Source of the DNA: Rheinheimera nanhaiensis E407-8
GTDB lineage: Bacteria > Pseudomonadota > Gammaproteobacteria > Enterobacterales > Alteromonadaceae
Assembly (NCBI RefSeq): GCF_000296695.1
Contig: NZ_BAFK01000004.1
Coordinates: 62,001-126,000, forward strand
DNA: 64,000 bases
Direction of reading: 5' to 3'
Position numbers and translations under genes: made by a program. Below, in pieces: positions 625-28,392 of the stretch; position 1 is the stretch's first letter; each line of letters opens with the position of its first letter. The notes below the pieces were generated by a model. The model was not told where the DNA came from. It searched no databases and saw only the letters and a list, made by a program, of their open reading frames with translations.

Positions 625-2427
625 ATGCAAGCGCTCAATTTTCACCAACTACAACAAAAACTCAGCTTTATCGACAACTATCTGCAGGCCACGAATGCCG
701 CCGATGGCTCAAAGTTAGATGCCAATGCTAACGTGACACAAAAAAACATTGCCACGCTGGAAGCCGAGCTAATGAAAGATCAGTTTATTCAGGTAAATAG
801 GGCGTTAGTTAGCAATAAAATCAGTGAGTTATTTGGTGCTGAACTGGCAGCGGAATACCTGCGGCAAATTAGCGATCACGAAATTTATGTACACGATGAA
901 ACCAGCTTAAAGCCATATTGTGTGTCGGTAACTATGTATCCGTTTTTACGCGATGGCTTAACCAAACTGGGCGGCGAGTCACAAGCGCCGAAGCATTTAG
1001 AATCCTTCTGTGGCTGTTTTGTTAACTTCGTGTTTGCCGTGTCCAGCCAGTTTGCCGGCGCCGTGGCCACAGTGGAGTTTTTAACCTACTTTGATTACTT
1101 TGCCCGCAAAGACTATGGCGATAACTACCTGCAAACGCATCGCAAACAAATCGAAAACCACCTGCAGCATGTAGTGTATGCGCTAAACCAGCCAGCGGCA
1201 GCACGGGGCTACCAAAGCGTATTCTGGAATATTTCAGTGTACGACCAACACTACTTCGACAGCATGTTTGGTAACTTCGTGTTTCCGGACTTTGTTAAGC
1301 CAGAGTGGCAATCGGTGTCAGCGCTGCAGCAGTTTTTCTTAAGCTGGTTTAATAAAGAGCGGGATAAAACCGTGCTGACCTTCCCGGTGGTTACCGTTGC
1401 CATGTTAACCGAAAACGGCAAATGCAAAGATGCCGCCTTTGCCAATGACATTGCGGCTGAGATGGCAGCAGGGAATTCATTCTTTATTTACCAGTCTGAA
1501 AATGCCGACTCGTTAGCCAGCTGCTGTCGGCTGCGCAGTGAAATCAGCGACAATACGTTTTCTTACTCCTTAGGTGCAGGCGGTGTCGCCACCGGCTCTA
1601 TTAATGTGATTACCATTAATATGAACCGTTTAGTGCAGGATGGCCGCGACCTGGCTGTGGAAGTGGCGAAAATCCATAAATATCAGGTGGCCTACCGCAA
1701 ATTGATGGAGCAGTACAAAGCGGCCGGCCTGCTCACGGTATACGACGCGGGCTTTATCAGCCTGGACAAGCAATTTTTAACCATTGGCATTAATGGCATG
1801 GTAGAAGCGGCAGAATCGCAGGGGTTAACCGCCGGCAATAACCCGGCCTATATCCGTTTTGTGCAACAGCAGCTCAAAGTGATCTTCGACGCCAATAAAG
1901 CGGCCAAAGCCGAATATGGCTATATGTTTAACACCGAGTTTGTACCGGCGGAAAACCTGGGGGTAAAAAACGCCAAGTGGGATCGCGAAGATGGCTATAT
2001 AGTAGCGCGCGACTGCTATAACTCGTATTTTTATGTGGTAGAAGATGAGCACAGTAATACGCTGGACAAATTCCAGCTGCATGGACGGCAACTGCTGGAT
2101 TATCTCGATGGCGGCTCGGCGCTGCATTTAAATCTGGAGGAAAAACTCGACCAGCCGGGCTACGTTAACCTGCTGCATATCGCCGCCCAAACCGGCTGTA
2201 ACTACTTTTGTGTAAACGTGAAAATTACTATCTGCAACCAGTGTGAAGCCATCGACAAACGCACGCTGTGCGCCTGTGCTAAATGCGGCAGTAAAGATAT
2301 TGATTACGGTACCCGGGTTATTGGTTATTTAAAACGGGTATCTGCTTTTAGCAGTGGCCGTCGCCGGGAGCATAGCCTGCGGCATTATCAGCGCGAGCAA
2401 ACCCCCCAGCAACAACGCCGCGCTTAA
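625..2427 (+). CDS. nrdD: Anaerobic (class III) ribonucleoside-triphosphate reductase
   Basis: This enzyme makes deoxyribonucleotides without oxygen by glycyl radical chemistry. The C-terminal RVIGYL motif places the radical glycine at Gly567. Just before it are four zinc-type cysteines in two pairs, Cys537/Cys540 and Cys551/Cys554. A CC pair in SLASCCRLRSEI is the likely active-site cysteine region. The protein has 600 residues against about 712 in E. coli, and the difference is at the N-terminus: I see no ATP-cone domain, so the usual dATP overall-activity control appears absent. An AAAAGGG ribosome site sits before the ATG. It is co-transcribed with nrdG. Confidence 0.95.
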   Translation: MQALNFHQLQQKLSFIDNYLQATNAADGSKLDANANVTQKNIATLEAELMKDQFIQVNRALVSNKISELFGAELAAEYLRQISDHEIYVHDETSLKPYCVSVTMYPFLRDGLTKLGGESQAPKHLESFCGCFVNFVFAVSSQFAGAVATVEFLTYFDYFARKDYGDNYLQTHRKQIENHLQHVVYALNQPAAARGYQSVFWNISVYDQHYFDSMFGNFVFPDFVKPEWQSVSALQQFFLSWFNKERDKTVLTFPVVTVAMLTENGKCKDAAFANDIAAEMAAGNSFFIYQSENADSLASCCRLRSEISDNTFSYSLGAGGVATGSINVITINMNRLVQDGRDLAVEVAKIHKYQVAYRKLMEQYKAAGLLTVYDAGFISLDKQFLTIGINGMVEAAESQGLTAGNNPAYIRFVQQQLKVIFDANKAAKAEYGYMFNTEFVPAENLGVKNAKWDREDGYIVARDCYNSYFYVVEDEHSNTLDKFQLHGRQLLDYLDGGSALHLNLEEKLDQPGYVNLLHIAAQTGCNYFCVNVKITICNQCEAIDKRTLCACAKCGSKDIDYGTRVIGYLKRVSAFSSGRRREHSLRHYQREQTPQQQRRA

Positions 2428-2455
2428 AGCGGATTAAATCCGCAGCGCAAAAACC

Positions 2456-2487
2456 GGGGCGCCTGTAACTATGAGAATGGGCGCCCC
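2456..2487. repeat. GGGGCGCC inverted repeat (REP-like or terminator)
   Basis: GGGGCGCC at 2456-2463 pairs with GGCGCCCC at 2480-2487 and is followed by TAC. The same GGGGCGC.../...GCGCCCCTAC design recurs at 11061-11154, and a related TAAGGGCGCA palindrome is at 61194. It sits between the convergent nrdD and sirB2-like genes, where it could stop transcription, although no T-run follows. Confidence 0.55.
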
Positions 2488-2506
2488 TACAAACCCGAGG
2501 CAGACA

Positions 2507-2887
2507 TCAAACAAACAACAACGGTTTAAACCGGGCCAGGTAAAAAATACCCGCCAAATGCGCCAGCGCGATAACAGCACACACCGCACGCACCGGCAGG
2601 CTTAGGCGCTGTTTTAAGGCGCCAATACCAAACACAATATAACCCAGCAACAATAGAATTTTAAACCCCAGCCATTGGTGCACAAAGGGCTGCCAAGGCC
2701 CGATAGCCAATAATGTGAATGCCAGCGTAAGCAACAAGGTGTCGTTAATATGCGGCAAATATCGCACCGGGCTTAAGCGCCAACCGGGTTTACCGGCCAT
2801 ATCCAACAATAACCGCAGCATAAACAAGCCGGCACTCAAATAAGCACAAAACATATGTAATTGTTTTAACGGTAAATAGTATTCCAT
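2507..2887 (-). CDS. SirB2-family inner-membrane protein
   Basis: A small hydrophobic protein of 126 residues with about four membrane helices. The N-terminal MEYYLPLKQLHMFCAYLS is typical of the SirB2 family (named from a Salmonella invasion-gene regulator locus). The family's biochemical role is not settled. The frame stays open 12 codons further upstream, but the internal ATG at 2887 fits the family's usual start and follows a GAGAG ribosome site. It is convergent with nrdD and divergent from norZ. Nothing in the sequence links it to NO metabolism beyond its position. Confidence 0.75.
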   Translation of the reverse strand: MEYYLPLKQLHMFCAYLSAGLFMLRLLLDMAGKPGWRLSPVRYLPHINDTLLLTLAFTLLAIGPWQPFVHQWLGFKILLLLGYIVFGIGALKQRLSLPVRAVCAVIALAHLAGIFYLARFKPLLFV

Positions 2888-2992
2888 TTGGCAGCTCTCA
2901 TCGTCATCTTTGCGCGCCACCATAAAACAACTTCCCCGCCATGCCTATATCGCTGAAGAGGTAGAAAAAACTGTTAGCATCAACTGATCCGG

Positions 2993-3046
2993 GTACTTTC
3001 TACCCTGACGGTAAATTACACCCAGTCCAGCGCAAGTTAAAACCAC
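2993..3046 (+). promoter_or_regulatory. Three GT-N7-AC NorR-type enhancer sites upstream of norZ
   Basis: Three matches to the NorR half-site pattern GT-N7-AC lie at 2993-3003 (palindromic GGGTACTTTCTACCC), 3011-3021 and 3036-3046. Centre spacings are 18 and 25 bp. E. coli norVW also carries three such sites that load a NorR hexamer. A very similar triplet (spacings 17 and 25) precedes ytfE at 27526-27578. A sigma-54-like promoter follows at 3100. norR itself is at 25995-27524. Confidence 0.75.
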
Positions 3047-3099
3047 CCAACCTTTAAGTAAATCACAATAAAATCAATTAAAAACAATTAATTAAAAAA

Positions 3100-3114
3100 T
3101 GGCGTAGTTCTTGT
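3100..3114 (+). promoter_or_regulatory. Sigma-54-type promoter of norZ
   Basis: TGGCGTAGTTCTTGT has the -24 GG and the -12 element ten bases on, as GG-N10-GT instead of the canonical GG-N10-GC. The mismatch at the -12 C lowers confidence, but its place 60 bp after the last NorR-type site supports it. Predicted transcription would begin near 3126, ahead of the leader ORF. Confidence 0.55.
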
Positions 3115-3162
3115 AATGCCCATACAGGCGACAACGCCGGTTATATAAAATAGGAGTGACCT

Positions 3163-3219
3163 ATGACACTTGGGTGCAACAACAATAATGTAAGGGGGCT
3201 GTATGGCCGGATATCGTAA
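3163..3219 (+). CDS. Possible 18-codon leader ORF overlapping norZ
   Basis: An ATG at 3163 follows a near-ideal TAGGAGTGACCT ribosome site and reads 18 codons (MTLGCNNNNVRGLYGRIS) to a TAA at 3217-3219. It overlaps the norZ start at 3203 in a different frame. Its Shine-Dalgarno looks stronger than that of many real genes here. It could couple or attenuate translation of norZ. No known family is recognised, and it may have arisen by chance. Confidence 0.4.
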   Translation: MTLGCNNNNVRGLYGRIS

Positions 3220-5470
3220 ACTCTGGTGGCTGTTAATTGCCATTTTGGCCATCACCTTTGGCGTGCTGGGCTATTTTGGCGCTGAGGTGTACCGCTCGGC
3301 GCCGCCTATTCCGGCTAAGGTGGTTAATCAGCAAGGGCAAGTGCTGATGACCAATGAAACTATCTTAAACGGCCAGACCGCCTGGCAATCGGTTGGTGGT
3401 ATGCAGCTGGGCTCTATCTGGGGCCATGGCGCCTATCAGGCACCGGACTGGACGGCCGACTGGCTGCACCGCGAGTTAATAGCCTGGCTGGAACTTGCCG
3501 CGCAAGATGAATTTGGCCAAAGCTACAACGAGCTTAATGCCACGCAACAAAATACGCTGCAGTTTGCGTTAAAGCAGGCCTACCGCAGCAACAGCTACGA
3601 CAAAGCCACTGACACCTTGCTGCTAAGCGACAGGCGGGTACAGGCCATAACGCAAACGGCTGAACACTATATTGCCTTGTTTGGTGATGATATTGCACTT
3701 AGCCAAACCCGCGCCAACTATGCAATGAAAAACAATACCCTGCCCTCACTTAAACGCCGGCAGGAAATGACGCAGTTTTTCTTTTGGACGGCCTGGGCAG
3801 CCAGCACTGAGCGTTATCCGGACAGTGCAACCTACACCAATAATTGGCCACATGAGCCGTTAATTGACAACCGGCCAACCGCCGAGAACCTGATTTGGTC
3901 ACTGGTGAGTATTATTTTACTGATCGCCGGTGTCGGTGGCCTGATCTGGGGCTGGGCCTTCCTACGCAAACACGATGACGAAGAGCCTGCAGCGCCAAAA
4001 CAAGACCCTATCGCCCGCTTAACACTGACCCCGTCACAAAAAGCACTGGGTAAATATATTCTGGTGGTGGTGGCACTGTTTACGCTACAGGTGTTTTTAG
4101 GTGGTTTTACCGCCCACTACACCGTAGAAGGCGATGGTTTTTATGGCTTAAACACCACTGAATGGCTGCCGTACAGCCTGGCGCGTACCTGGCATATTCA
4201 AGCCGCGATGTTCTGGATTGCCACCGGCTTTTTAGCGGCAGGCTTATTCTTAGCACCCATTATTAACGGCGGTAAAGATCCCAAGTACCAAAAACTGGGC
4301 GTCGATGTACTGTTTTGGGCCTTAGTGGTGCTGGTAGCGGGCTCTTTTGCCGGTAACTACTTTGCCATTATGCAAATTATGCCAGAGCAATACAGTTTCT
4401 GGTTTGGCCATCAGGGCTATGAGTACATTGATATTGGCCGCTTCTGGCAAATTATTAAATACGTTGGCGTACTGTTCTGGTTAGTGCTGATGCTGCGCGC
4501 TGTGGTACCGGCCTTTAAAGCCCCTGGCGATAAAAACCTGCTGGCGCTATTTGCCGCCTCGGTGATTTGCGTCGGCTTATTTTACGGTGCCGGCCTGTTT
4601 TATGGCGAGCGCACACATTTATCAGTAATGGAATACTGGCGCTGGTGGGTGGTTCACCTGTGGGTAGAGGGCTTCTTTGAAGTGTTCGCTACCGTATCGC
4701 TGGCGTTTATCTTCCACAGCATGGGGCTGGTATCGCGCAGTGTCGCCACCAGTGCCAGCTTAGCGTCAGCGTCACTGTTTATGTTAGGCGGTATACCGGG
4801 CACCTTCCACCACTTGTACTTCTCGGGCACCACTACGCCGGTGATGGCAGTTGGTGCCACTTTTAGTGCACTGGAAGTGGTACCACTGGTAGTACTGGGT
4901 TATGAAGCCTGGGAAAACTGGCGCCTGAAAAATAAAGCGCCGTGGATGGGCGATATTAAATGGCCACTGATGTTTTTCGTCGCCGTGGCGTTCTGGAACA
5001 TGCTCGGCGCCGGCGTGTTTGGTTTTATGATTAACCCGCCGATAGCACTGTATTATCTGCAGGGCTTAAACACTACGCCAACCCATGCCCATGCTGCGCT
5101 ATTTGGTGTCTATGGCTTCCTGGCGCTGGGTTTCTGTTTGCTGATACTGCGTTATATCCGGCCACAACTGGTGTTTGATGAAAAGCTGATGAAAACGGCG
5201 TTTTGGTGGATGAACGGCGGCCTGGTGCTAATGCTGTTTAGCAGCCTGTTGCCGATTGGCTTTATTCAGTTTTACGCCAGCGCCACCGAAGGCTTATGGT
5301 ATGCCCGCAGTGAAGCCTTTATGCAAAGCGACATTTTGCATACGCTACGCTGGGTGCGCACCTTTGGCGACGTGATCTTTATCATCGGTGCCTTAGCAGT
5401 GAGCTGGCAAGTGGTAAAAGGCGTGTTTGACAGCAAAGCTGCCGTGCAGCCATTGCAACAGCTAAACTAA
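3203..5470 (+). CDS. norZ: Quinol-dependent nitric oxide reductase (qNOR)
   Basis: Single-subunit NO reductase of the haem-copper oxidase superfamily. It reduces 2 NO to N2O with electrons from quinol, in the inner membrane. The 755-residue length is right for qNOR, with an N-terminal extension (residues 30-230, including the GHGAYQAPDWTADWLHRE stretch) fused to a 12-14 helix catalytic core. Likely non-haem iron ligands are His485 and the His536-His537 pair; a THAH motif with His628 and His630 falls in the haem b/b3 helix region. The start has a TAAGGGGG ribosome site. Three NorR-type sites and a sigma-54-type promoter lie upstream, so NO-induced expression through norR is expected. It may serve denitrification or detoxification. 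Confidence 0.93.
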   Translation: MAGYRKLWWLLIAILAITFGVLGYFGAEVYRSAPPIPAKVVNQQGQVLMTNETILNGQTAWQSVGGMQLGSIWGHGAYQAPDWTADWLHRELIAWLELAAQDEFGQSYNELNATQQNTLQFALKQAYRSNSYDKATDTLLLSDRRVQAITQTAEHYIALFGDDIALSQTRANYAMKNNTLPSLKRRQEMTQFFFWTAWAASTERYPDSATYTNNWPHEPLIDNRPTAENLIWSLVSIILLIAGVGGLIWGWAFLRKHDDEEPAAPKQDPIARLTLTPSQKALGKYILVVVALFTLQVFLGGFTAHYTVEGDGFYGLNTTEWLPYSLARTWHIQAAMFWIATGFLAAGLFLAPIINGGKDPKYQKLGVDVLFWALVVLVAGSFAGNYFAIMQIMPEQYSFWFGHQGYEYIDIGRFWQIIKYVGVLFWLVLMLRAVVPAFKAPGDKNLLALFAASVICVGLFYGAGLFYGERTHLSVMEYWRWWVVHLWVEGFFEVFATVSLAFIFHSMGLVSRSVATSASLASASLFMLGGIPGTFHHLYFSGTTTPVMAVGATFSALEVVPLVVLGYEAWENWRLKNKAPWMGDIKWPLMFFVAVAFWNMLGAGVFGFMINPPIALYYLQGLNTTPTHAHAALFGVYGFLALGFCLLILRYIRPQLVFDEKLMKTAFWWMNGGLVLMLFSSLLPIGFIQFYASATEGLWYARSEAFMQSDILHTLRWVRTFGDVIFIIGALAVSWQVVKGVFDSKAAVQPLQQLN

Positions 5471-5487
5471 TACCCAAACTATCATAC

Positions 5488-5520
5488 AAGGCTTCTGCTT
5501 AGTTAAAGCGAAGCCTTTTT
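5488..5520 (+). terminator. Rho-independent terminator after norZ
   Basis: AAGGCTTCTGCTT pairs with AAAGCGAAGCCTT around a short AGTT loop and ends in a TTTTT run. It lies 18 bp after the norZ stop, so norZ is probably monocistronic and the MOSC gene has its own promoter. Confidence 0.85.
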
Positions 5521-5572
5521 GGTACCTTAACCTGTCAAACAATACGCCTTTTGTTCAGGAGCAACACAACAA

Positions 5573-6259
5573 ATGATTGTCAGCGCAAGAATTGTCCACA
5601 TAAGAACCGGCGGCTTGCAACCACTCGGCACAGAGGGGGTTATCAGCGGCATCCATAAAACGCCGGTAAAGCAAGCCTGGCTGGGCATTAACGGCTTAGA
5701 AGGTGACTTACAGGCGGACCGGCTACATCATGGCGGTGCAGAAAAGGCCTTACATCATTACCCCGCCAGCCATTATGCCTACTGGCAGCAAATACTTGGT
5801 AAGCTGCCCGATTTTGGCGACAGCGCCGCCTTTGGCGAAAACCTGACGACAGATGCGTTAACCGAACAGGATGTTTGTGTTGGCGATATCTGGCAATTGG
5901 ATCAGGCTATTGTAGAGGTATCGCAGGCAAGGCAACCGTGCTGGAAATTAAACTTACGTTTTGCCAAACAAAACATGGCAAGGTTAGTTCAGGACAGCCG
6001 CCGTACCGGCTGGTATTACCGGGTATTGACGCCTGGAATGGTGGCAACCGGTTACATTATGACACTGCTTGAACGCCCTTATCCTAACTGGCCGCTATCA
6101 CGTTTGTTAGACACTCTTTATGGCTCCACCTGGTGCACAGAAGTGTTACAAGAAATCGCCATGCTTAGCCCGCTTAGCGAATCATGGCGAAGTTTAGCAA
6201 AACAGCGCTTAAAAACAGGTCAGGTAGAAGACTGGCGCAAACGACTAGGCGAGCCATAA
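5573..6259 (+). CDS. MOSC-domain protein (YiiM-like)
   Basis: MOSC domains bind a molybdenum cofactor through a conserved cysteine; YiiM-type members reduce N-hydroxylated bases such as 6-hydroxylaminopurine. The 228-residue protein shows the family layout: an N-terminal MOSC domain (residues 1-165) with HHGGAEKALHHY, a GEN motif and candidate Mo-ligand Cys123 in QARQPCWKLNLRF, then a C-terminal helical extension. The ATG is preceded by TTCAGGAGC. It sits between norZ and a DnrO-like gene, and molybdenum cofactor genes (mog, moeB) occur further along. The exact substrate cannot be told from the sequence. Confidence 0.85.
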   Translation: MIVSARIVHIRTGGLQPLGTEGVISGIHKTPVKQAWLGINGLEGDLQADRLHHGGAEKALHHYPASHYAYWQQILGKLPDFGDSAAFGENLTTDALTEQDVCVGDIWQLDQAIVEVSQARQPCWKLNLRFAKQNMARLVQDSRRTGWYYRVLTPGMVATGYIMTLLERPYPNWPLSRLLDTLYGSTWCTEVLQEIAMLSPLSESWRSLAKQRLKTGQVEDWRKRLGEP

Positions 6260-6293
6260 ATTAACTTACTCGTGCCTGGCAAAACCCGCTTAC

Positions 6294-6767
6294 TTAATGT
6301 GTAATAGGCAAAAACGCGTCATCATTAAAATACTCGGAATAGCGCTGCAACGCCCGTAACAACTTAACAGCGCCCTGGCGTTGGGTTGTCAATTCACTTG
6401 CAGCCATCGCTTGCTGGCTTTGCATCATTGCCGCAAGTACCAAATGAAACTGCGCATCTGCCTCGGGTGTTAACTTGCAATTGGCAACGATGTGGTTAAC
6501 TTCCTGCTGCAACATCTGAGAAAACTGTTGATATTGTGACGCGGTAAAACGTTTGTGATGAATATCATCCAGATGCGTTAGCAGCTGTGCCCTCAGCCGA
6601 AGCATCGCCTCACTTAACACTGTATCTACCGGCCATTTAGCGCCATCATTCAGCGCCAGCATCGTAAGCACCTCATCATCGCCATGGTGATGATGAGGTG
6701 CTTGATCAGCCTGTAAGGGCGCGGCATGCAGTAAGCCGGTTAACAGCCATATCGATAGTATTTTCAT
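6294..6767 (-). CDS. Secreted helical protein, DnrO-like
   Basis: A 157-residue exported protein. Residues 1-20 form a signal peptide ending near LQADQA, followed by a His-rich patch (HHHHGDD). The rest is alpha-helical with LALNDGAKWPVD, a single cysteine in VANCKLTPEADAQFH and a C-terminal LQRYSEYF. This pattern resembles small proteins labelled DnrO found near denitrification genes in other proteobacteria. I recall the resemblance but could not test it. The His cluster suggests metal binding. It is divergent from the next gene and convergent with the MOSC gene. Confidence 0.6.
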   Translation of the reverse strand: MKILSIWLLTGLLHAAPLQADQAPHHHHGDDEVLTMLALNDGAKWPVDTVLSEAMLRLRAQLLTHLDDIHHKRFTASQYQQFSQMLQQEVNHIVANCKLTPEADAQFHLVLAAMMQSQQAMAASELTTQRQGAVKLLRALQRYSEYFNDDAFLPITH

Positions 6768-6942
6768 GCATTATTCTCCCTTTGATATGGAATTATTCCG
6801 TTAACGCACCGTCCTGTCTACCTTGTTACTGCTGTGAGCAACAAAGCATATTAGGCACTACGATGTACCTACTTTGTATAATAGCCAGACAATGGGTCAT
6901 ACAGTACAGTTGGCGCTCTTGCCGTAACCAGAGGTTGGTATT

Positions 6943-8511: not shown

Positions 8512-10473
8512 TTAGGCCAGCGTAAAACGCCCTACCAGCTGTTGCAGTTGCTCGGCAAGGCGCGCCAGTTCGCGGCTGGTGCTGGCGGTTTGCTCAGCAC
8601 CGGCACTGGTTTGTACTGCTACATCACTAATATTAAGTATTTTTTGGTTTATCTCATCAGCTACTGCAGCTTGCTGCTCGGCCGCTGAGGCGATCTGCGT
8701 ATTCTTATCATTAATGCCATTAATACCCTGTAGCACCTGCGCCAGAATATCACCAGTTTCAGCTACTTTGTCACGGCCTTCCTGCGCCTGGCTCAGGCTG
8801 ATACGCATCGCATCGGTGGCCTGGGTTGCGCCTTGTTGCAAGCCTTCTATCATGCGCTGGATATCACCGGTCGACTGCGCCGTGCGCTGCGCCAGAGTAC
8901 GCACCTCATCTGCGACTACGGCAAAACCGCGGCCTTGCTCACCTGCCCGGGCCGCTTCTATGGCCGCATTTAACGCCAGCAAATTCGTTTGCTCGGCAAT
9001 ACCACGAATTACATCCAGCACCGAGGTAATGGCATCACTGTCCTGTTTTACCTGGTCAATCACTTTGGCGGTGCTGTCAACCTGGCCCGATAAACGCTGA
9101 ATAAGTGCTATGGTCTGCTCTAACCGGCTTTGCCCTTGTGCTGCACCGGCTTGCACGGTTTCCGACAACTCTGCCGCCTCTGCCGTGCTGGCGGCAACAT
9201 CACGCACGGTAGCGCTCATTTCATGCATCGCAGTGGCCACCATTTCGGTGTCTTGCTGTTGCTGCTGTACGCCTTTACTGGTTTGCAACGTTACCGCCGA
9301 TGATTGCTCGGCAGCGGTAGCAACCTGCGCAGTAGCGCCGCCAATTTCATGAATAACCCGCAGCAGCTCCTGCGCCATATTATTGGTGCTGTCGGCAATG
9401 CGGCCAAACTCATCTTTACTTTTATAGTGGCTGCGCGCGGTAAGGTCGCGCTTTGCCAGTGCAGTAATGGTGCTTTCAATACTGCGTACTGCAGCTGAAA
9501 TACTGCGCATGGTAATAGCTGCAACAATTGTCAGCACGGCACTTATCAACACAATAGCCGCCGCTAATAACCATAATTGGCGCACAGACTGCTGCTGCAG
9601 TTGCTCAGCAGAGGCGACAATACCGGCTTTGAGTGCTGTTTCAAATTCAGCCATTTGCGCCAGACGGCTAGTAGCAAGGTCAAACCACTGGCCATCATCT
9701 ACGTTAAGCGGCTCACCCAGTGCGGTGTTAAACGCCAGTTGCTGCAGGCGGGCCACTTCAGCAAAGCTGTTATGCTGGCTAAGGGTACGCCAGGCGCTTT
9801 GCTGCTGTGGGCTGACCATACGTAAAAAGTTTTCAGCAAAGGCGTTATAAGCGCCTAAATTATTGCTAAAGCGAGCCAGTAATTCACTGTTAAAACTGCC
9901 ACGGCTAAACACTAAGCCTAAAATGGCGCGCTCACGCCCGGCGCGCTCTTTCATTTCTATAAACTGGTTGAGTATCGCCAGTTGCCGCGCCATATCCCGG
10001 TGCGTCAGCGCCGCTTCCAACTGATGGTTTTGCGCTATCATGGCAGTAATGAGTGCGGTATAACGCTCAGCCGAGCTGGCATTGTTGATGCTTTGCTGAT
10101 CAACCTGATGGCGCAACGCATTAAGCTCGCCCAGCTGTTGCTGTAGCGCATTAAGCTCAGGCAATTGCACAGCTAAAAACGCCTGTAAACGCTGATCGCT
10201 TTGCTGGCGCAGTTGCGGCAAACGCTGGGCAAAGCGGCTACCATTGCTGGCCAGGTAAACACCACTGGCACCACGCTCAGCTTGTAGGGTGGCTACTAAC
10301 GCATTGGTTGTGGCTGACGCTTCAATAGCCTGGCTAACATGCTCAGCCAGAGCAACCTGCTGCCAGCTGTCGCTAAAACGCCCCAGCGCCAGCCATAACG
10401 CCGCCAGCGCCGGCAACAACAGTAATAACATCAGTTTACGGCTAATCGACAAGTTGCGGATAAAGTGTGTCAT
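8512..10473 (-). CDS. Methyl-accepting chemotaxis protein with NIT sensor domain
   Basis: A 653-residue chemoreceptor. A first membrane helix (residues 12-30) is followed by a long helical periplasmic region (50-300) with the [16 protein letters not shown] motif typical of the nitrate/nitrite-sensing NIT domain. A second helix (about 300-325), a HAMP domain (325-380) and the cytoplasmic signalling hairpin follow; the hairpin tip [20 protein letters not shown] is intact. It would report nitrate or nitrite to CheA. No CheR-docking pentapeptide is seen at the C-terminus. Position among nitrate and NO genes agrees with the sensor type. Confidence 0.88.
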
Positions 10474-10640
10474 AAGACGGCCTCGGGGTGAAAATTACCA
10501 CCATTTTAGGTAAAAACCACCCAGCTGCTAAGCAGGCAAAGGTGACTACCTCTTCAGGGTTAGCCCCTACCCCACCAGAGCCGGTATTTTCACTACACAG
10601 GCTTTGTTACACTGGCGAAAACTGTTAGCAGGCGTGAATC

Positions 10641-19651: not shown

Positions 19652-20980
19652 ATGGTGCAGCCTGCTCCAACAACGCTGGCACAAGCGACTCTACCCGGTG
19701 CAACCCGGGCATTACTGATGGCAACATTAGCCTTTGCCGCCTGTTTTTCTGTCTGGACCCTATACGCCGTAATGGGCATAGCACTGCAACAACAGCTTAA
19801 TCTTAGCGCCACCGAATACGGTTTTCTGCTGGCCGCACCTATCATTAGCGGTGCCGTGCTGCGCATTCCGCTTGGTATTCTGGCTGACAGATCCAGTGCC
19901 CGCCGGTTATGGCTGTATCAGATGCTGGCCGTGATACCAGCCTTACTGCTACTGCCACAGGTAGACAGCTACGCGGGTTATTTATGGCTGGGGCTCTGGT
20001 TTGGTATTAGCGGCGTGTCTTTTACGTTGGGCGTGCGCTATGTCAGCCAGTGGTTTGCTTCCAGCCGTCAGGGCCGCGCTTTAGGGTTGTTTGGCGTCGG
20101 CAATGCCGGGGTGGCCATTACCTTCGTGTTGGTGCCGCTGACGGTGCACTACGCCGGCTGGACATGGGTTGGGCCTGTTTATGCCGCCGGCATGTTGTTC
20201 ATCAGCCTGCTATTCGCCTTACTGGCACCGAAAGAGCCGCTGCAATTAACGCCCCCCCCCTGCGCGCTTAGTCTGCGTCAGCTATGCAGTGATGCCCGCA
20301 TCTGGCGTTTTTCGCTGTACTATTACTTTGTGTTTGGCAGTTTTTTAGCGCTACTGCTGTGGCTGCCGCAATATTATATGCAAGCCTACGACATGGACGC
20401 ACAACAAGCCATGGCGTTTACGCTGTTTTTTGTCGCCACATCCAGCATGGTTCGGGCACTGGGCGGCTGGTTCGCCGATCGCTACGGCGGCCGCGCTGTG
20501 AACTGGAGCGTGTTCTGGGTCTGTATTGTTTGCCTGTTTTTTTTAAGTTACCCGCCAACTACCTTAATTATTCACGGCCTGGAAAAAGACGTACAGCTGG
20601 AAATTGGCATTAATGTCTGGTGGTTTACCTTACTGATTTTTATTATTGGCGTAGCACAAGGCTTTGGCCGTGCCAGCGTGTACAAAGTTATTCACGATTA
20701 CTACCCGCAACATATGGGCAGTGCCGGCGGTTTTGTCGCCGCCATAGGCGCGCTCGGCGGTTGCACCCTGCCAATACTGTTTGGTGTAGCACAGGACGTA
20801 CTGGGTATAGTCACCGGCTGTTTTATGATTTTATACGGCGTGTTGGCACTGTGTATGATCACCATGTTTTTTGCCAACCAGGCGGCACAATATCAACAAC
20901 GGCTGGCACAGGCGCAGCGTAACAATTTTCTACTTGATGACGAACCTGTTCTAAACACTAAGGATACGCCATGCAAATAA
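19652..20980 (+). CDS. NarK-family nitrate transporter (NarK1-like)
   Basis: A second MFS nitrate porter, 442 residues with 12 helices. Signature loops differ from the neighbour: LFGVGNAGVAITF and GAIGALGGCTLPILFG, which fit the type I (nitrate/proton symport) branch. Having one of each type is common in nitrate respirers: one for initial uptake, one for nitrate/nitrite exchange. Type assignment is inference from motif likeness. nnrS overlaps the 3' end by 10 bp, so the two are co-transcribed. Confidence 0.85.
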   Translation: MVQPAPTTLAQATLPGATRALLMATLAFAACFSVWTLYAVMGIALQQQLNLSATEYGFLLAAPIISGAVLRIPLGILADRSSARRLWLYQMLAVIPALLLLPQVDSYAGYLWLGLWFGISGVSFTLGVRYVSQWFASSRQGRALGLFGVGNAGVAITFVLVPLTVHYAGWTWVGPVYAAGMLFISLLFALLAPKEPLQLTPPPCALSLRQLCSDARIWRFSLYYYFVFGSFLALLLWLPQYYMQAYDMDAQQAMAFTLFFVATSSMVRALGGWFADRYGGRAVNWSVFWVCIVCLFFLSYPPTTLIIHGLEKDVQLEIGINVWWFTLLIFIIGVAQGFGRASVYKVIHDYYPQHMGSAGGFVAAIGALGGCTLPILFGVAQDVLGIVTGCFMILYGVLALCMITMFFANQAAQYQQRLAQAQRNNFLLDDEPVLNTKDTPCK

Positions 20981-22173
20981 CCGATCTGGCCACCGAGCAA
21001 AAGCTATTCCCCCTGCTACGCCAGGCGTTTCGGCCGATGTTTTTGTTCGGCGCGGCTTTTAGTGCTATCGCCATGCTGCTGTGGGGCCTGACCCTGGCAG
21101 GCCATATTCAGCTAAAGCCATTTGCTAATGTGCTATTTTGGCACAGCCATGAAATGCTGTTTGGTTTTGTTGCTGCCATCGTGATCGGTTTTTTACTGAC
21201 TGCAGTGCAAAACTGGACCGGCCTGAGGGCACCACATGGCAAAAGCCTGCTGTTTATCAGCCTGCTATGGCTGGCCGGTCGCTTGCTGTTATTGTTCGGT
21301 GAAGGCTTGCCGCTGTATCTGGTGGCTGCGGTCGATTTAAGCTTTCTGCCGGTATGCGCTTATCTGCTTGCCGTACCACTGATTAAAACCGGCCAACAGC
21401 GTAACCTGTTTTTTATTCCACTACTGCTGTTACTTACTGCCTGTAACCTGCTGATGTATATCGGCATAGCAACATCGCGCTATGAATGGGTGCAAATGGG
21501 TAGCCAAAATGCAGTGTGGCTTATTACCTTACTGATGGCGATAGTCGGCGGCCGGGTACTGCCGATGTTTACTGCTAACGGCACCCAAACGAAAAAAGTC
21601 GATGCTATTGTTTGGTTAGATCGCGCCGCGCTGGGCTCACTCTGGCTGATTTTTCTGCTGCATTTCTTTGCCCTCAAGCAATACCTGCCGCCGCTGGCGA
21701 TAAGCGGCTTATTTGGCCTGAGCGCCGTTCTAACCGGCCTGCGCTGCCTGCGCTGGAAAATCTGGCTCACAGTAAAAGTGCCGCTACTGTGGTCACTGCA
21801 TTTAGCCTACTGGTGCATTCCGCTGGGGTTAGCGTTATACAGTGCGCGTTATGCCGGGGTAAATATCAGCAACAGCATAGCGCTGCATGCGCTAACCGCC
21901 GGCGCTATGGGCAGTATGATTTTAAGCATGATGGCGCGGGTATCACTGGGCCACAGCGGACGCTTGCTAAAACCGCATGCGGTAATGTCGCTGGCGTTTT
22001 TGCTGGTACTGGCGGCGGCCATCAGCCGCACTGTGCTTATTTGGCTATGGCCGGCGCAAACCATGCAATGGCTGTGGCTGGGTGTCGGCGGCTGGGTGCT
22101 GGCCTATGTGCTTTACGTGCTGGTATATTTTCCGGTGCTTACCACCCCAAGGCCAGATGGCCGGCCGGGCTAA
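20971..22173 (+). CDS. nnrS: NnrS-family haem/copper membrane protein
   Basis: NnrS is a 12-helix inner-membrane protein that protects cells against NO-related stress and is widespread in denitrifiers. The 400-residue protein shows the family's WHSHEMLFGFV motif near residue 57, with histidines that are likely metal or haem ligands, and a second AHALTAGAMGSMIL-like histidine motif near residue 305. Its start overlaps the upstream narK gene, which suggests coupled translation. The exact reaction is not known for the family. Confidence 0.9.
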   Translation: MQITDLATEQKLFPLLRQAFRPMFLFGAAFSAIAMLLWGLTLAGHIQLKPFANVLFWHSHEMLFGFVAAIVIGFLLTAVQNWTGLRAPHGKSLLFISLLWLAGRLLLLFGEGLPLYLVAAVDLSFLPVCAYLLAVPLIKTGQQRNLFFIPLLLLLTACNLLMYIGIATSRYEWVQMGSQNAVWLITLLMAIVGGRVLPMFTANGTQTKKVDAIVWLDRAALGSLWLIFLLHFFALKQYLPPLAISGLFGLSAVLTGLRCLRWKIWLTVKVPLLWSLHLAYWCIPLGLALYSARYAGVNISNSIALHALTAGAMGSMILSMMARVSLGHSGRLLKPHAVMSLAFLLVLAAAISRTVLIWLWPAQTMQWLWLGVGGWVLAYVLYVLVYFPVLTTPRPDGRPG

Positions 22174-25610: not shown

Positions 25611-25995
25611 GCTTGTTATCCTGTGTTATTTGTTCAGGCCTGCGCCACAGCCAGCATGCAACCAGTAGCAACAACAGCGGTAACAACAGCTTGAGTAATA
25701 CCGGAGCAGCTGAAAATTGAATGAGTACGGCACTCAGGGTCATCATGCCGCTGGCGAGATATTTAGCGCGCCGCGGCACTACACCATGTGCGCGCCAGGC
25801 TAATACCGGCGGGCCCAACCGCGAATGTGCCAGCAACCACTGCTCTAATGCCGGCCAGCCTTTACCGGCCGACCAGGCGCTAAGCAGAATAAACGGAACC
25901 GTTGGCAAACCCGGTAAAGGAATACCGATGCCCCCCAGAATTAAACTGATTACTGCTAACAGCCGCCAAAGCATCTGCTTAGTAATATGCCACAT
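25603..25995 (-). CDS. YbaN-family (DUF454) membrane protein
   Basis: A 130-residue inner-membrane protein with the DUF454 signature IGIPLPGLPTVPFILLSAW near residue 22 and two or three helices. The family is widespread, and its function is not established. The ATG overlaps the norR stop by one base (TAATG), and its own 3' end overlaps moeB, so norR, this gene and moeB are translationally linked. Confidence 0.85.
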   Translation of the reverse strand: MWHITKQMLWRLLAVISLILGGIGIPLPGLPTVPFILLSAWSAGKGWPALEQWLLAHSRLGPPVLAWRAHGVVPRRAKYLASGMMTLSAVLIQFSAAPVLLKLLLPLLLLLVACWLWRRPEQITQDNKHD

Positions 25996-27524
25996 TATTT
26001 CAGCCCCAGCCGCTGTGCCAATTTGTGCAGGTTGCTTGGATCCAACTCCAACTGTCGCGCCGCCTGTGACCAGCTGCCCTCATGCTGCGTTAACGCTTGT
26101 TGGATCATCTGCCGTTGCAGTTGGTTAATGGCCTGCTTAAGTGTAATAGCCGCATTATGCTGCACTGGGTTATTCAACGCCGTGTGATGCTCTGCTACCG
26201 TCACGCTGTCAATATCCAGCAGCTCAGCGCCCAGTGTTACAATATCGCTGCGTGCTGCACCATGGCTTAATGCTTTAATTGCCGCCCGGCTTATTACATG
26301 CTCCAGTTCGCGCACATTACCGGGCCAGTCATAGGTTAACAGCGCCAGCTCAGCGGCCGGCGCTAAACGCAAAGCTCTGAGCCCAAGCCGGCTGCGGTTA
26401 AGCTCTAAAAAATGACCGGCCAACAACGGAATATCGTCACGCCGCTCGCGCAACGGCGGGATGGGTAAAGGATATACTGACAGACGGTGATATAAATCGG
26501 CACGAAACTCACCACTTTTTACCTGTTGCTTCAAATCACGGTTAGTGGCGGCCACTAAGCGAACATTCACCAGTCGCGTTTTATCAGATCCCAGCCGTTG
26601 AATTTCACCGTTTTGTAATACACGCAACAGTTTAGCCTGCACCAATAGCGGCAGTTCACCTACTTCATCCAGAAACAAGGTGCCACCATCAGCCGCTTCA
26701 AACCGCCCCGCCCGGTCACTGTGCGCCCCGGAAAAAGCGCCCTTGTTATGGCCAAACAATTCACTTTCCGCCAGGCTTTCCGGCAACGCTGCACAATTCA
26801 GGTAAATCATCGGTTTGCTGGCCCGGGCTGAGCTGCGGTGCAAATGCCGGGCAAACAGTTCTTTACCAACCCCGGTTTCTCCAAGCAGCAATACCGGCAA
26901 GTCAGAATTTGCCACTACGGTAAGCTCCTGCAGAATTTGCTGCAGTACTTTACTCTGGCCAATCAGTTCATAGCGCAGCTTAGCGGCCGGTTCAAATTGT
27001 TGCTCATCAGCCTGATGATTCAGCCGCAACGCCCGGTTAGCTTGCTCCAACTCAGTGGTTCGCACTGCCGCTTCCACCAGTAAGCTGTAACGCTGCAGTT
27101 CAAATACAGCTGCCTGAGAAAAACTACCGGCTTCTAACGCATCCAGAGTTAACACACCCCAACACCGGCCTTCAATGTAAAGGGCTATGCCCATACAATC
27201 ATGTACAGGTAGCGCCTGGCCCGGCTGCTCTGCCAATAAACCATCGTAGGGGTCCGGCAGGCCACAATCTGGTTCAAACCGCACCGGATTACGACTGGCT
27301 AAAATAGCGGCCAACCGTGGATGCTGGCTAATCACAAACCGGCGCCCAAGCGCTTCGCGCACTAAACCATGTAAAGCCACCGGCTTTAATATATCGTGCT
27401 CAATTTTAAGCAGCCCTACAGCACCACAGCCAAAATGATTACGTAAAGTGCTGACTAAACGCTGTAACCGCACAGCTGCCGGTAGATCTGTCACCAAATC
27501 TGCAATTAAACTTTCTTCCAACAT
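25995..27524 (-). CDS. norR: Nitric oxide-sensing sigma-54 activator NorR
   Basis: NorR senses NO through a mononuclear iron in its GAF domain and activates sigma-54 promoters of NO-reducing genes. The 509-residue protein has a GAF domain (about 15-165) retaining DPYDGLL (Asp91, Asp94), Cys110 and Asp128, which correspond to iron-site residues of E. coli NorR. An AAA+ domain (187-425) follows with Walker A GETGVGKE and Walker [13 protein letters not shown]. The sigma-54 contact loop reads GAFSGA (262-267) rather than GAFTGA, a Thr-to-Ser change. A Fis-type helix-turn-helix closes the protein. It is divergent from ytfE; one NorR-type site abuts its start codon, suggesting autorepression. Confidence 0.93.
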
Positions 27525-27525
27525 G

Positions 27526-27578
27526 GTAATTATGACCCTTGGGTTATTTTAACCCTGATTTAGCTGGGTTCAATTTAC
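27526..27578 (+). promoter_or_regulatory. Three GT-N7-AC NorR-type sites between norR and ytfE
   Basis: Sites lie at 27526-27536, 27543-27553 (palindromic GGGTTATTTTAACCC) and 27568-27578. Centre spacings of 17 and 25 bp nearly equal those upstream of norZ. The first site sits immediately next to the norR start codon and covers its ribosome site, so NorR bound there could limit its own synthesis while activating ytfE. Confidence 0.8.
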
Positions 27579-27620
27579 CATAGCTGCAAATAAAGCCATA
27601 TAAATCAAAGGTGGTAGTTT

Positions 27621-27635
27621 TGGCCTGACTCTTGC
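27621..27635 (+). promoter_or_regulatory. Sigma-54 promoter of ytfE
   Basis: TGGCCTGACTCTTGC has the canonical GG-N10-GC arrangement, with TGG and TTGC intact. It lies 49 bp after the centre of the last NorR-type site and 59 bp before the ytfE ATG. Transcription would start near 27647. Confidence 0.85.
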
Positions 27636-27693
27636 CTTTTATAACCAGACGGGAGCTTTACCCGGCATGTTAATTACTTAGTCAGGAGTACCT

Positions 27694-28392
27694 ATGTCAT
27701 TACTGGATCAATCTTTAGGCGAGATCGCCACCTCTGTAGCCGGTGCTACCGCCGTATTTCATCAATACAAACTGGATTTTTGTTGTGGCGGCCAACTTAG
27801 CCTGCGTGAAGCCCTTGCCAAACGGCAGTTGCCAACAGACGAAATTGTAAAAGCACTACAAACATTGCAGCAGCAACCCACTGAACATATTGATTGGCGT
27901 ACAGCGCCGGTGAAACAGCTTATCGAACATATTTTAACCCGATTTCATCAGCGGCATCGCCAGCAGTTGCCGGAACTGTGCCGCTTAGCGCGCAGAGTTG
28001 AACATGTTCATGCTATGGACCCGCAGTGCCCGACAGGTCTGGCCGATCATCTGGGTGATATGTATCAGGAGCTCGAAAGCCATATGATGAAAGAAGAGCA
28101 AATTCTGTTTCCGATGCTGTCAGGCGGTATTTATCCGGCCGGGCCCATAAGTGTGATGGAAGAAGAACACCTGCAACATGGCGATGCGCTGGACAAACTT
28201 GACCAACTGACTAATAACATTACCTTGCCGGCAGAGGCTTGCAACACTTGGACCGCGCTATATGTTGGCTTAAAAGAACTGAAAGAAGATCTGATGCAGC
28301 ATATTTTGCTGGAGAACCATATTTTGTTTGTGCAACCAAACACGCCAACCAAAAATGACGACCAACAAATATGCTGTGGCAGTTGCCAATAA
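27694..28392 (+). CDS. ytfE: Iron-sulfur cluster repair di-iron protein YtfE/RIC
   Basis: YtfE (also DnrN, ScdA, RIC) repairs iron-sulfur clusters damaged by NO. The 232-residue protein has the short ScdA-type N-terminal domain with the Cys30-Cys31 pair in KLDFCCGGQ, followed by a hemerythrin-like four-helix domain whose metal ligands are expected among HTRFHQRHRQ, VEHVHAMD, ESHMMKEEQILF, EEEHLQHGD and ENHILF. It ends CCGSCQ, an extra cysteine group that may bind metal. The start follows GTCAGGAGTACCT. A sigma-54 promoter and three NorR-type sites upstream indicate NO induction. Confidence 0.93.
   Translation: MSLLDQSLGEIATSVAGATAVFHQYKLDFCCGGQLSLREALAKRQLPTDEIVKALQTLQQQPTEHIDWRTAPVKQLIEHILTRFHQRHRQQLPELCRLARRVEHVHAMDPQCPTGLADHLGDMYQELESHMMKEEQILFPMLSGGIYPAGPISVMEEEHLQHGDALDKLDQLTNNITLPAEACNTWTALYVGLKELKEDLMQHILLENHILFVQPNTPTKNDDQQICCGSCQ

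Follow-up and report, generated by a model that had tools for sequence, protein, structure and literature searches.

The norR-ytfE intergenic region

The window, by which we mean the whole stretch of 64,000 nucleotides analysed here, carries the divergent genes norR (25995..27524, minus strand) and ytfE (27694..28392, plus strand). The norR product, an NO-sensing sigma-54 activator of 509 amino acids, scores 719 bits against its equivalog model (NCBIfam NF003451, cut-off 476), and its Pfam GAF, sigma-54 AAA+ and Fis-type HTH domains were all found. The iron-ligand segments of the GAF domain, checked against the list of ligands in excerpts of PMC4601167, are kept in this NorR: the DPYDG segment is present in 59/60 aligned rows (one reads DPYDA), and the H-x-C segment reads VHDC or VHAC in 60/60. 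YtfE (RIC, a di-iron iron-sulfur repair protein; norA of Ralstonia) reaches 314 bits with the equivalog model NF008221 (cut-off 254) and contains the ScdA_N and hemerythrin domains.

Between the two genes lie three tandem operator sites followed by a sigma-54 promoter. Site 1 spans 27525..27537 (GT-N7-AC core 27526-27536, centre 27531; GGTAATTATGACC) and abuts the norR ATG, the first G of its extended motif adjoining the start codon (CATGGT); site 2 spans 27542..27554 (core 27543-27553, centre 27548; GGTTATTTTAACC) and site 3 spans 27567..27579 (core 27568-27578, centre 27573; GGTTCAATTTACC). The promoter, at 27621..27636 on the plus strand (TGGCCTGACTCTTGCC), was tested for the sigma-54 -24/-12 signature and has GG-N10-GC 3' of the triple (GG 27622-27623, GC 27634-27635). 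Centre spacings are 17 and 25 bp, and the distance from the third centre to the GG is 49 bp.

The bare GT-N7-AC core is no commoner than chance, with 192 occurrences in the window versus 187.5 expected. Even with loose spacing allowed (15-23 and 22-27 bp), the window has two triples in all, one at ytfE and one upstream of norZ. None of 60 first-order Markov resamples of the window contained the exact spacing together with the promoter; loosely spaced triples averaged 0.23 per resample, and those accompanied by a promoter 0.05.

We searched 60 genomes for NorR, 29 of which gave a match at threshold. Among 30 norR loci, ytfE adjoins norR in 23, comprising the window's own, 21 other loci of the genus and a single locus from a different family within the order. 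The triple is present in 23/23 (window counted), with 17, 18 or 20 bp between the first two sites, then 25 bp, and the GG exactly 49 bp from site 3. Because these 23 loci were found via norR, adjacency to norR is no independent test.

Site 1 and the norR start

Site 1 begins beside the norR ATG in all 23 loci although the gap between sites 1 and 2 varies. A site in this position would cover the norR ribosome-binding region, and NorR would therefore probably limit its own expression. The preliminary description had claimed that the first site touches the norR start codon and that autorepression is built in. The contact recurs at every locus, while autorepression is plausible and is deduced from this placement, a norR sigma-70 promoter being recognizable at 9/12 letters in only 6/23 loci (window counted), five of them with the same hexamers. 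In the window, the tentative candidate for this promoter lies at 27546..27573 on the minus strand (TTGAAC-16-TAAAAT, the hexamers falling in sites 3 and 2), with one such element found versus 0.3 expected in shuffles; as a conserved feature it was rejected.

Site 1 might instead abut the norR start merely because the intergenic region is short and the site is part of the ytfE enhancer, with no autorepression. We consider this a serious though somewhat doubtful possibility: the poor conservation of the sigma-70 promoter would fit it, as would E. coli, in which site 1 begins roughly 12 bp past the norR start with the enhancer layout unchanged, but it leaves unaccounted for that site 1 stays fixed at the norR start in 23/23 loci while the site 1-2 distance changes. 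The same abutment is seen in six distant loci of the same operator class (L164-L168 and L171, with starts placed by homology), and E. coli NorR is a dual regulator according to RefSeq, both of which favor autorepression.

The norZ enhancer and its promoter

The NO reductase gene norZ (3203..5470, plus strand) encodes Pfam NorB_cytochrome_c-like and COX1 domains, which suggest a single-subunit, qNOR-type enzyme. Its operator triple (2992..3047, GT sites at 2993, 3011 and 3036) has spacings of 18 and 25 bp and lies 60 bp, measured from site 3, from the GG of a sigma-54 promoter at 3100..3115 on the plus strand (GG at 3101; TGGCGTAGTTCTTGTA). Site 3 lacks the first G of the extended motif in the window. 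All distances given in the preliminary description, 17/25 bp at ytfE, 18/25 bp at norZ and 49 versus 60 bp from the last site to the GG, were recovered on re-measurement. Its GG-N10-GC signature holds for ytfE but not for norZ, which has GT at -12 and is therefore off consensus; -12 reads TTGT in 16/17 same-genus norZ loci, and a scan for GG-N10-GC, as had been proposed, would miss norZ.

A fourth GT-N7-AC box (2960..2972) lies 30-32 bp upstream of the norZ triple and recurs in 16/17 norZ loci; a SirB-family gene, divergently oriented, starts close to it.

Conservation of the two layouts

The norZ triple was seen in 17/17 same-genus loci (window counted), with spacings of 18-19 and 24-25 bp and a distance of 59-60 bp to the promoter. 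The promoter offset between ytfE and norZ, 49 versus 59-60 bp or approximately one helical turn, is thus kept across loci. When 27 of the 40 enhancers are aligned, 16/18 core GGT/ACC columns are invariant versus 1/46 other columns, and since the core columns hold as the others drift, the motif is better described as GGT-N7-ACC than as bare GT-N7-AC, although individual sites, norZ site 3 in the window being one example, are without the initial G.

The four norZ-type matches outside the genus all differ from the same-genus layout: three (L048, L049 and L050) have no triple, and the fourth, L051, has 20/24/39 bp. L049 is the same gene as the norZ in L023 and L098, where norZ lies directly 3' of ytfE. 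In both, norR belongs to the same cluster. In L098, from another family of the order, norR, ytfE and norZ are adjacent (2230-6887), and ytfE and norZ apparently form one operon.

The fixed geometry of real sites could reflect recent common descent and not constraint, given that 22/23 norR-ytfE and 17/17 norZ loci belong to a single genus, many of them being close relatives. We regard this explanation as very improbable, because the spacers vary whereas the core columns do not, the site 1-2 gap shifts (17, 18 or 20 bp) while the 25 and 49 bp distances stay, and near-same geometry (18-20/24-26/47-49 bp) is also seen beyond the genus, in eight loci whose NorR is 59-69% identical.

As for IHF-like sites in the stretch from site 3 to -24, the signal is suggestive only. 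The best matches in the norZ spacers lie above mononucleotide shuffles (mean 7.82 versus 6.91, n = 17), whereas those in the ytfE spacers lie below (mean 6.17 of 9 versus 6.61, n = 23).

Genome-wide scan and co-occurrence with norR

An enhancer profile was built from sequence only, using aligned enhancer sites that included those of ytfE and norZ in the window. The genome-wide search proposed in the preliminary description, run in the form of a profile scan, returned strong triples at ytfE (54.4 bits) and norZ (45.4 bits) only, among the best 150 of 1922 first-look candidates, which were those scored, so that weak triples could be missed. As the profile was made from these very sites, the top two matches are expected, and only the scarcity of other strong triples is informative. 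The ytfE enhancer read on the reverse strand scores 23.3 bits. Of the remaining locations, the highest-scoring, at 18.5 bits (E 0.007), is a two-box match in front of a chemoreceptor gene; two further places follow at 12.5 and 12.2 bits. Weak profile matches also occur on contigs C33 and C42 of this genome and in G022, G004, G014 and G023.

The sigma-54 gene was found in the genome. For NsrR, the best model match is 44.6 bits against a cut-off of 182, and no equivalog was found in the genome. Hcp was considered as a further target, and this genome has no Prismane-family match at E 0.001. The nnrS gene (20971-22173) lies downstream of a gene that, by eye, resembles NarK-type transporters; no NorR-type enhancer at nnrS appears among the best 150 of the 1922 scan candidates.

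Across 31 same-genus genomes, enhancer matches were found in 22/22 with norR and in 1/9 without it (G002), giving a Fisher p of about 1e-6 with kinship ignored. In G002 (L093), the match adjoins what looks by eye like a norR remnant reduced to its first codons, with ytfE not next to the match and with a gene like the one following norR in the window beside it. G004 (L094) keeps a norZ-type enhancer; norZ is absent from the adjacent ORFs, and the genome gives no norZ match at threshold. Both are apparent natural losses.

These scans bear on a further alternative, in which a regulator other than NorR, such as an NO regulator of the Rrf2 or FNR type, uses the boxes as operators and some other activator works at the sigma-54 promoter. 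The looseness of the bare core, the 15 first-look NorR candidates in this genome (one over threshold), which leave room for other sigma-54 activators, and the enhancer match in the norR-less G002 would be compatible with this, but we judge it highly unlikely: the genome scans, which did not start from norR, give enhancer matches in every norR-containing genome of the genus and none in 8/9 same-genus genomes without norR, no NsrR equivalog was found in the genome, and the triple with -24/-12 agrees with the arrangement published for NorR. In the sections available of PMC2941729 and PMC1274295, NorR targets are marked by three GT-N7-AC sites in tandem and a sigma-54 promoter.

Site-to-promoter distance in the wider NorR family

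We extended the measurements to 66 further NorR loci, consisting of seven from the 60-genome search, 30 and 28 more, and E. coli K-12 (L028 and L146 being the same gene). A strict tally, limited to loci in which all three sites are intact and a good sigma-54 promoter follows within 70 bp, comprises 35 loci, or 36 with L171. Of the 30/66 loci outside it, 19 have no candidate and 11 fall out only through a damaged site 1 or a distance above 70 bp. In 36/36 loci of the strict tally, 24-26 bp separate sites 2 and 3, and the distance from site 3 to the GG falls into two classes, 47-50 bp (27 loci) and 60-62 bp (9 loci), no locus having an intermediate value. A looser tally takes in 47 loci, of which 26 have 47-50 bp, 18 have 60-64 bp and three have 81, 84 and 104 bp, with none at 51-59 bp; the 104 bp case is L171, which has a second promoter at 49 bp and is counted there in the strict tally. 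This split was recognized post hoc, among loci that share ancestry.

Both distance classes occur within a single family, f18, in which L122 and L123 have 50 bp and L124 and L125 have 62 bp, the pairs L122/L123 and L124/L125 being joined in the NorR tree with support 91/75; both also occur within this one genome. The class means differ by approximately 13 bp measured from site 3 and 12 bp measured from site 2. As this difference is a little over one turn, helical phasing may plausibly underlie the two classes. The presence of both in the wider family and in this genome makes the one-turn difference between ytfE and norZ the family pattern in miniature. The open-licence literature matches listed contain no earlier report of the distance classes, which is not proof of absence.

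Operator class and recognition helix

On the NorR tree, the loci with GGT-N7-ACC operators all fall on one side of a single branch (32/32 rows, support 100/100), opposite 26 rows with GTCA-N3-TGAC operators; 17 rows without an assigned operator class were left uncounted, and the program warns of several long branches. Classes were assigned by rule, the first 23 from their own operators and L171 and L183 by eye. The recognition helix carries Ser and Lys in 32/32 members of the GGT class (S497 and K501 here) versus Ala or Gly with Arg in 26/26 members of the GTCA class; 16 of the 17 class-less rows have Ala or Gly with Arg, and L186, which has GTT-type sites, has Ser with Arg. The loop of the AAA+ domain differs as well: it reads GAFSGA here, in place of GAFTGA, and GAFSGA is found in 31/32 NorR proteins of the GGT class (the remaining one is GAYSGA), whereas GAFTGA is found in 21/26 of the other class. 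Because the tree shows only one such split, the pairing of helix and operator could have arisen in a single event and is therefore a correlation; as such it may offer a simple, testable specificity rule.

Two genomes contain two NorR paralogues, one with Ser/Lys and one with Ala/Arg, namely G007 (L018 and L030) and G110 (L183 and L140). The different helices suggest that these paralogues may use insulated operator sets, a testable idea. Within the DNA examined around norR, ytfE lies nearby in 7/66 wide loci, all of the GGT class.

A chemoreceptor as a possible third target

The two-box match of the profile scan lies just upstream of the start of a gene for a NIT-HAMP-MCP chemoreceptor (8512..10473, minus strand), a possible third NorR target. 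The pair of GGT-N7-ACC boxes at 10487..10521 (10487-10499 and 10509-10521) is 22 bp apart. The window has four close GGT-N7-ACC pairs (15-30 bp), of which one is at norZ, two are at ytfE and one is at the chemoreceptor, versus a mean of 0.01 in resamples; the resamples are poorer in single motifs (10.2 versus 23 in the window), so the chance of pairs is somewhat above 0.01.

In 13 orthologous loci (window counted), the first box is GGT-N7-ACC in 13/13, and the second is GT-N7-AC in 12/13, eight of them the full GGT-N7-ACC, and is lost in L114. The chemoreceptor gene itself is found at threshold in 13/22 same-genus genomes with norR versus 0/9 without (Fisher p 0.004, kinship ignored). Between the boxes and the gene there is no sigma-54 promoter, a loose GG-N10-G[C/T] occurring only upstream of the boxes; the boxes flank a TAAAAT, TATACT or TATAAT element. 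A position on either side of a -10-like element would suit repression. The conserved box pair over the chemoreceptor promoter hints at a third NorR target, and one could envisage that NorR acts as a two-way switch in the clade, activating iron-sulfur repair and NO reductase from sigma-54 triples and repressing or re-setting the NIT (nitrate/nitrite-type) chemoreceptor from a box pair flanking a sigma-70-like -10. We consider this extended scheme tentative and, at present, unlikely. No NorR-controlled chemoreceptor appears by title among the open-licence literature matches listed, which is not proof of absence.

Discussion

We consider it very likely that NorR uses the region between norR and ytfE as an enhancer and that the same NorR switches on ytfE and norZ, and probably limits itself. 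The preliminary description had argued for a NorR regulon from the matched geometry of the two promoters. The regulon is strongly supported by the protein families, the conservation in both sets of loci, the profile scan and the co-occurrence with norR; the geometry, in turn, is the general NorR arrangement and not this genome's own.

With the sites, promoters, gene identities and conservation described above, ring assembly, NO gating and activation can be pictured by analogy with established NorR biology. NorR dimers would sit on the three GGT-N7-ACC palindromes and form a higher-order ring, and NO at the GAF-domain iron would release the AAA+ domain. The freed AAA+ domain would open sigma-54 RNA polymerase at the -24/-12 promoter 49 bp downstream, turning on ytfE and with it iron-sulfur repair. 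The same NorR, at a matched enhancer approximately one helical turn further from the promoter, would turn on the NO reductase gene norZ.

Among the closest known systems is NorR-norAB of Ralstonia (Cupriavidus) eutropha, where, according to the parts available of PMC1274295, PMC9268430 and PMC9045102, NorR drives norA, the ytfE homologue (PMC9268430, PMC9045102), together with NO reductase, from three tandem GT-N7-AC sites. It differs in that the NO reductase gene here has its own enhancer and promoter approximately 24 kb away, ytfE and norZ being side by side in L023 and L098. Escherichia coli NorR-norVW is alike in its divergent norR, three sites and sigma-54 promoter (measured 21/24/62 bp), but has GTCA-N3-TGAC operators and flavorubredoxin as the target; E. 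coli ytfE is under NsrR (excerpts of PMC9268430). For Pseudomonas stutzeri, excerpts of PMC1274295 give three candidate NorR sites at hmp (-192, -173 and -148, spaced 19 and 25 bp) and further candidates at the ytfE homologue dnrN, all predicted; unlike here, norR was not found in the then unfinished genome. Judged from sequence, the regulon in the window is of the Ralstonia type, with NorR controlling norA (ytfE) and NO reductase, an arrangement already known, of which the ytfE promoter described here is a new and well supported instance.

These comparisons give firm comparative grounding to a NorR regulon that joins iron-sulfur repair with NO reductase, in a genome in which no NsrR equivalog was found. 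The occurrence of both distance classes in one genome is a natural experiment on helical phasing at very short distances, and the specificity rule would be relevant where two NorR paralogues share a genome. If the chemoreceptor is indeed a NorR target, chemotaxis would be coupled to NO sensing.
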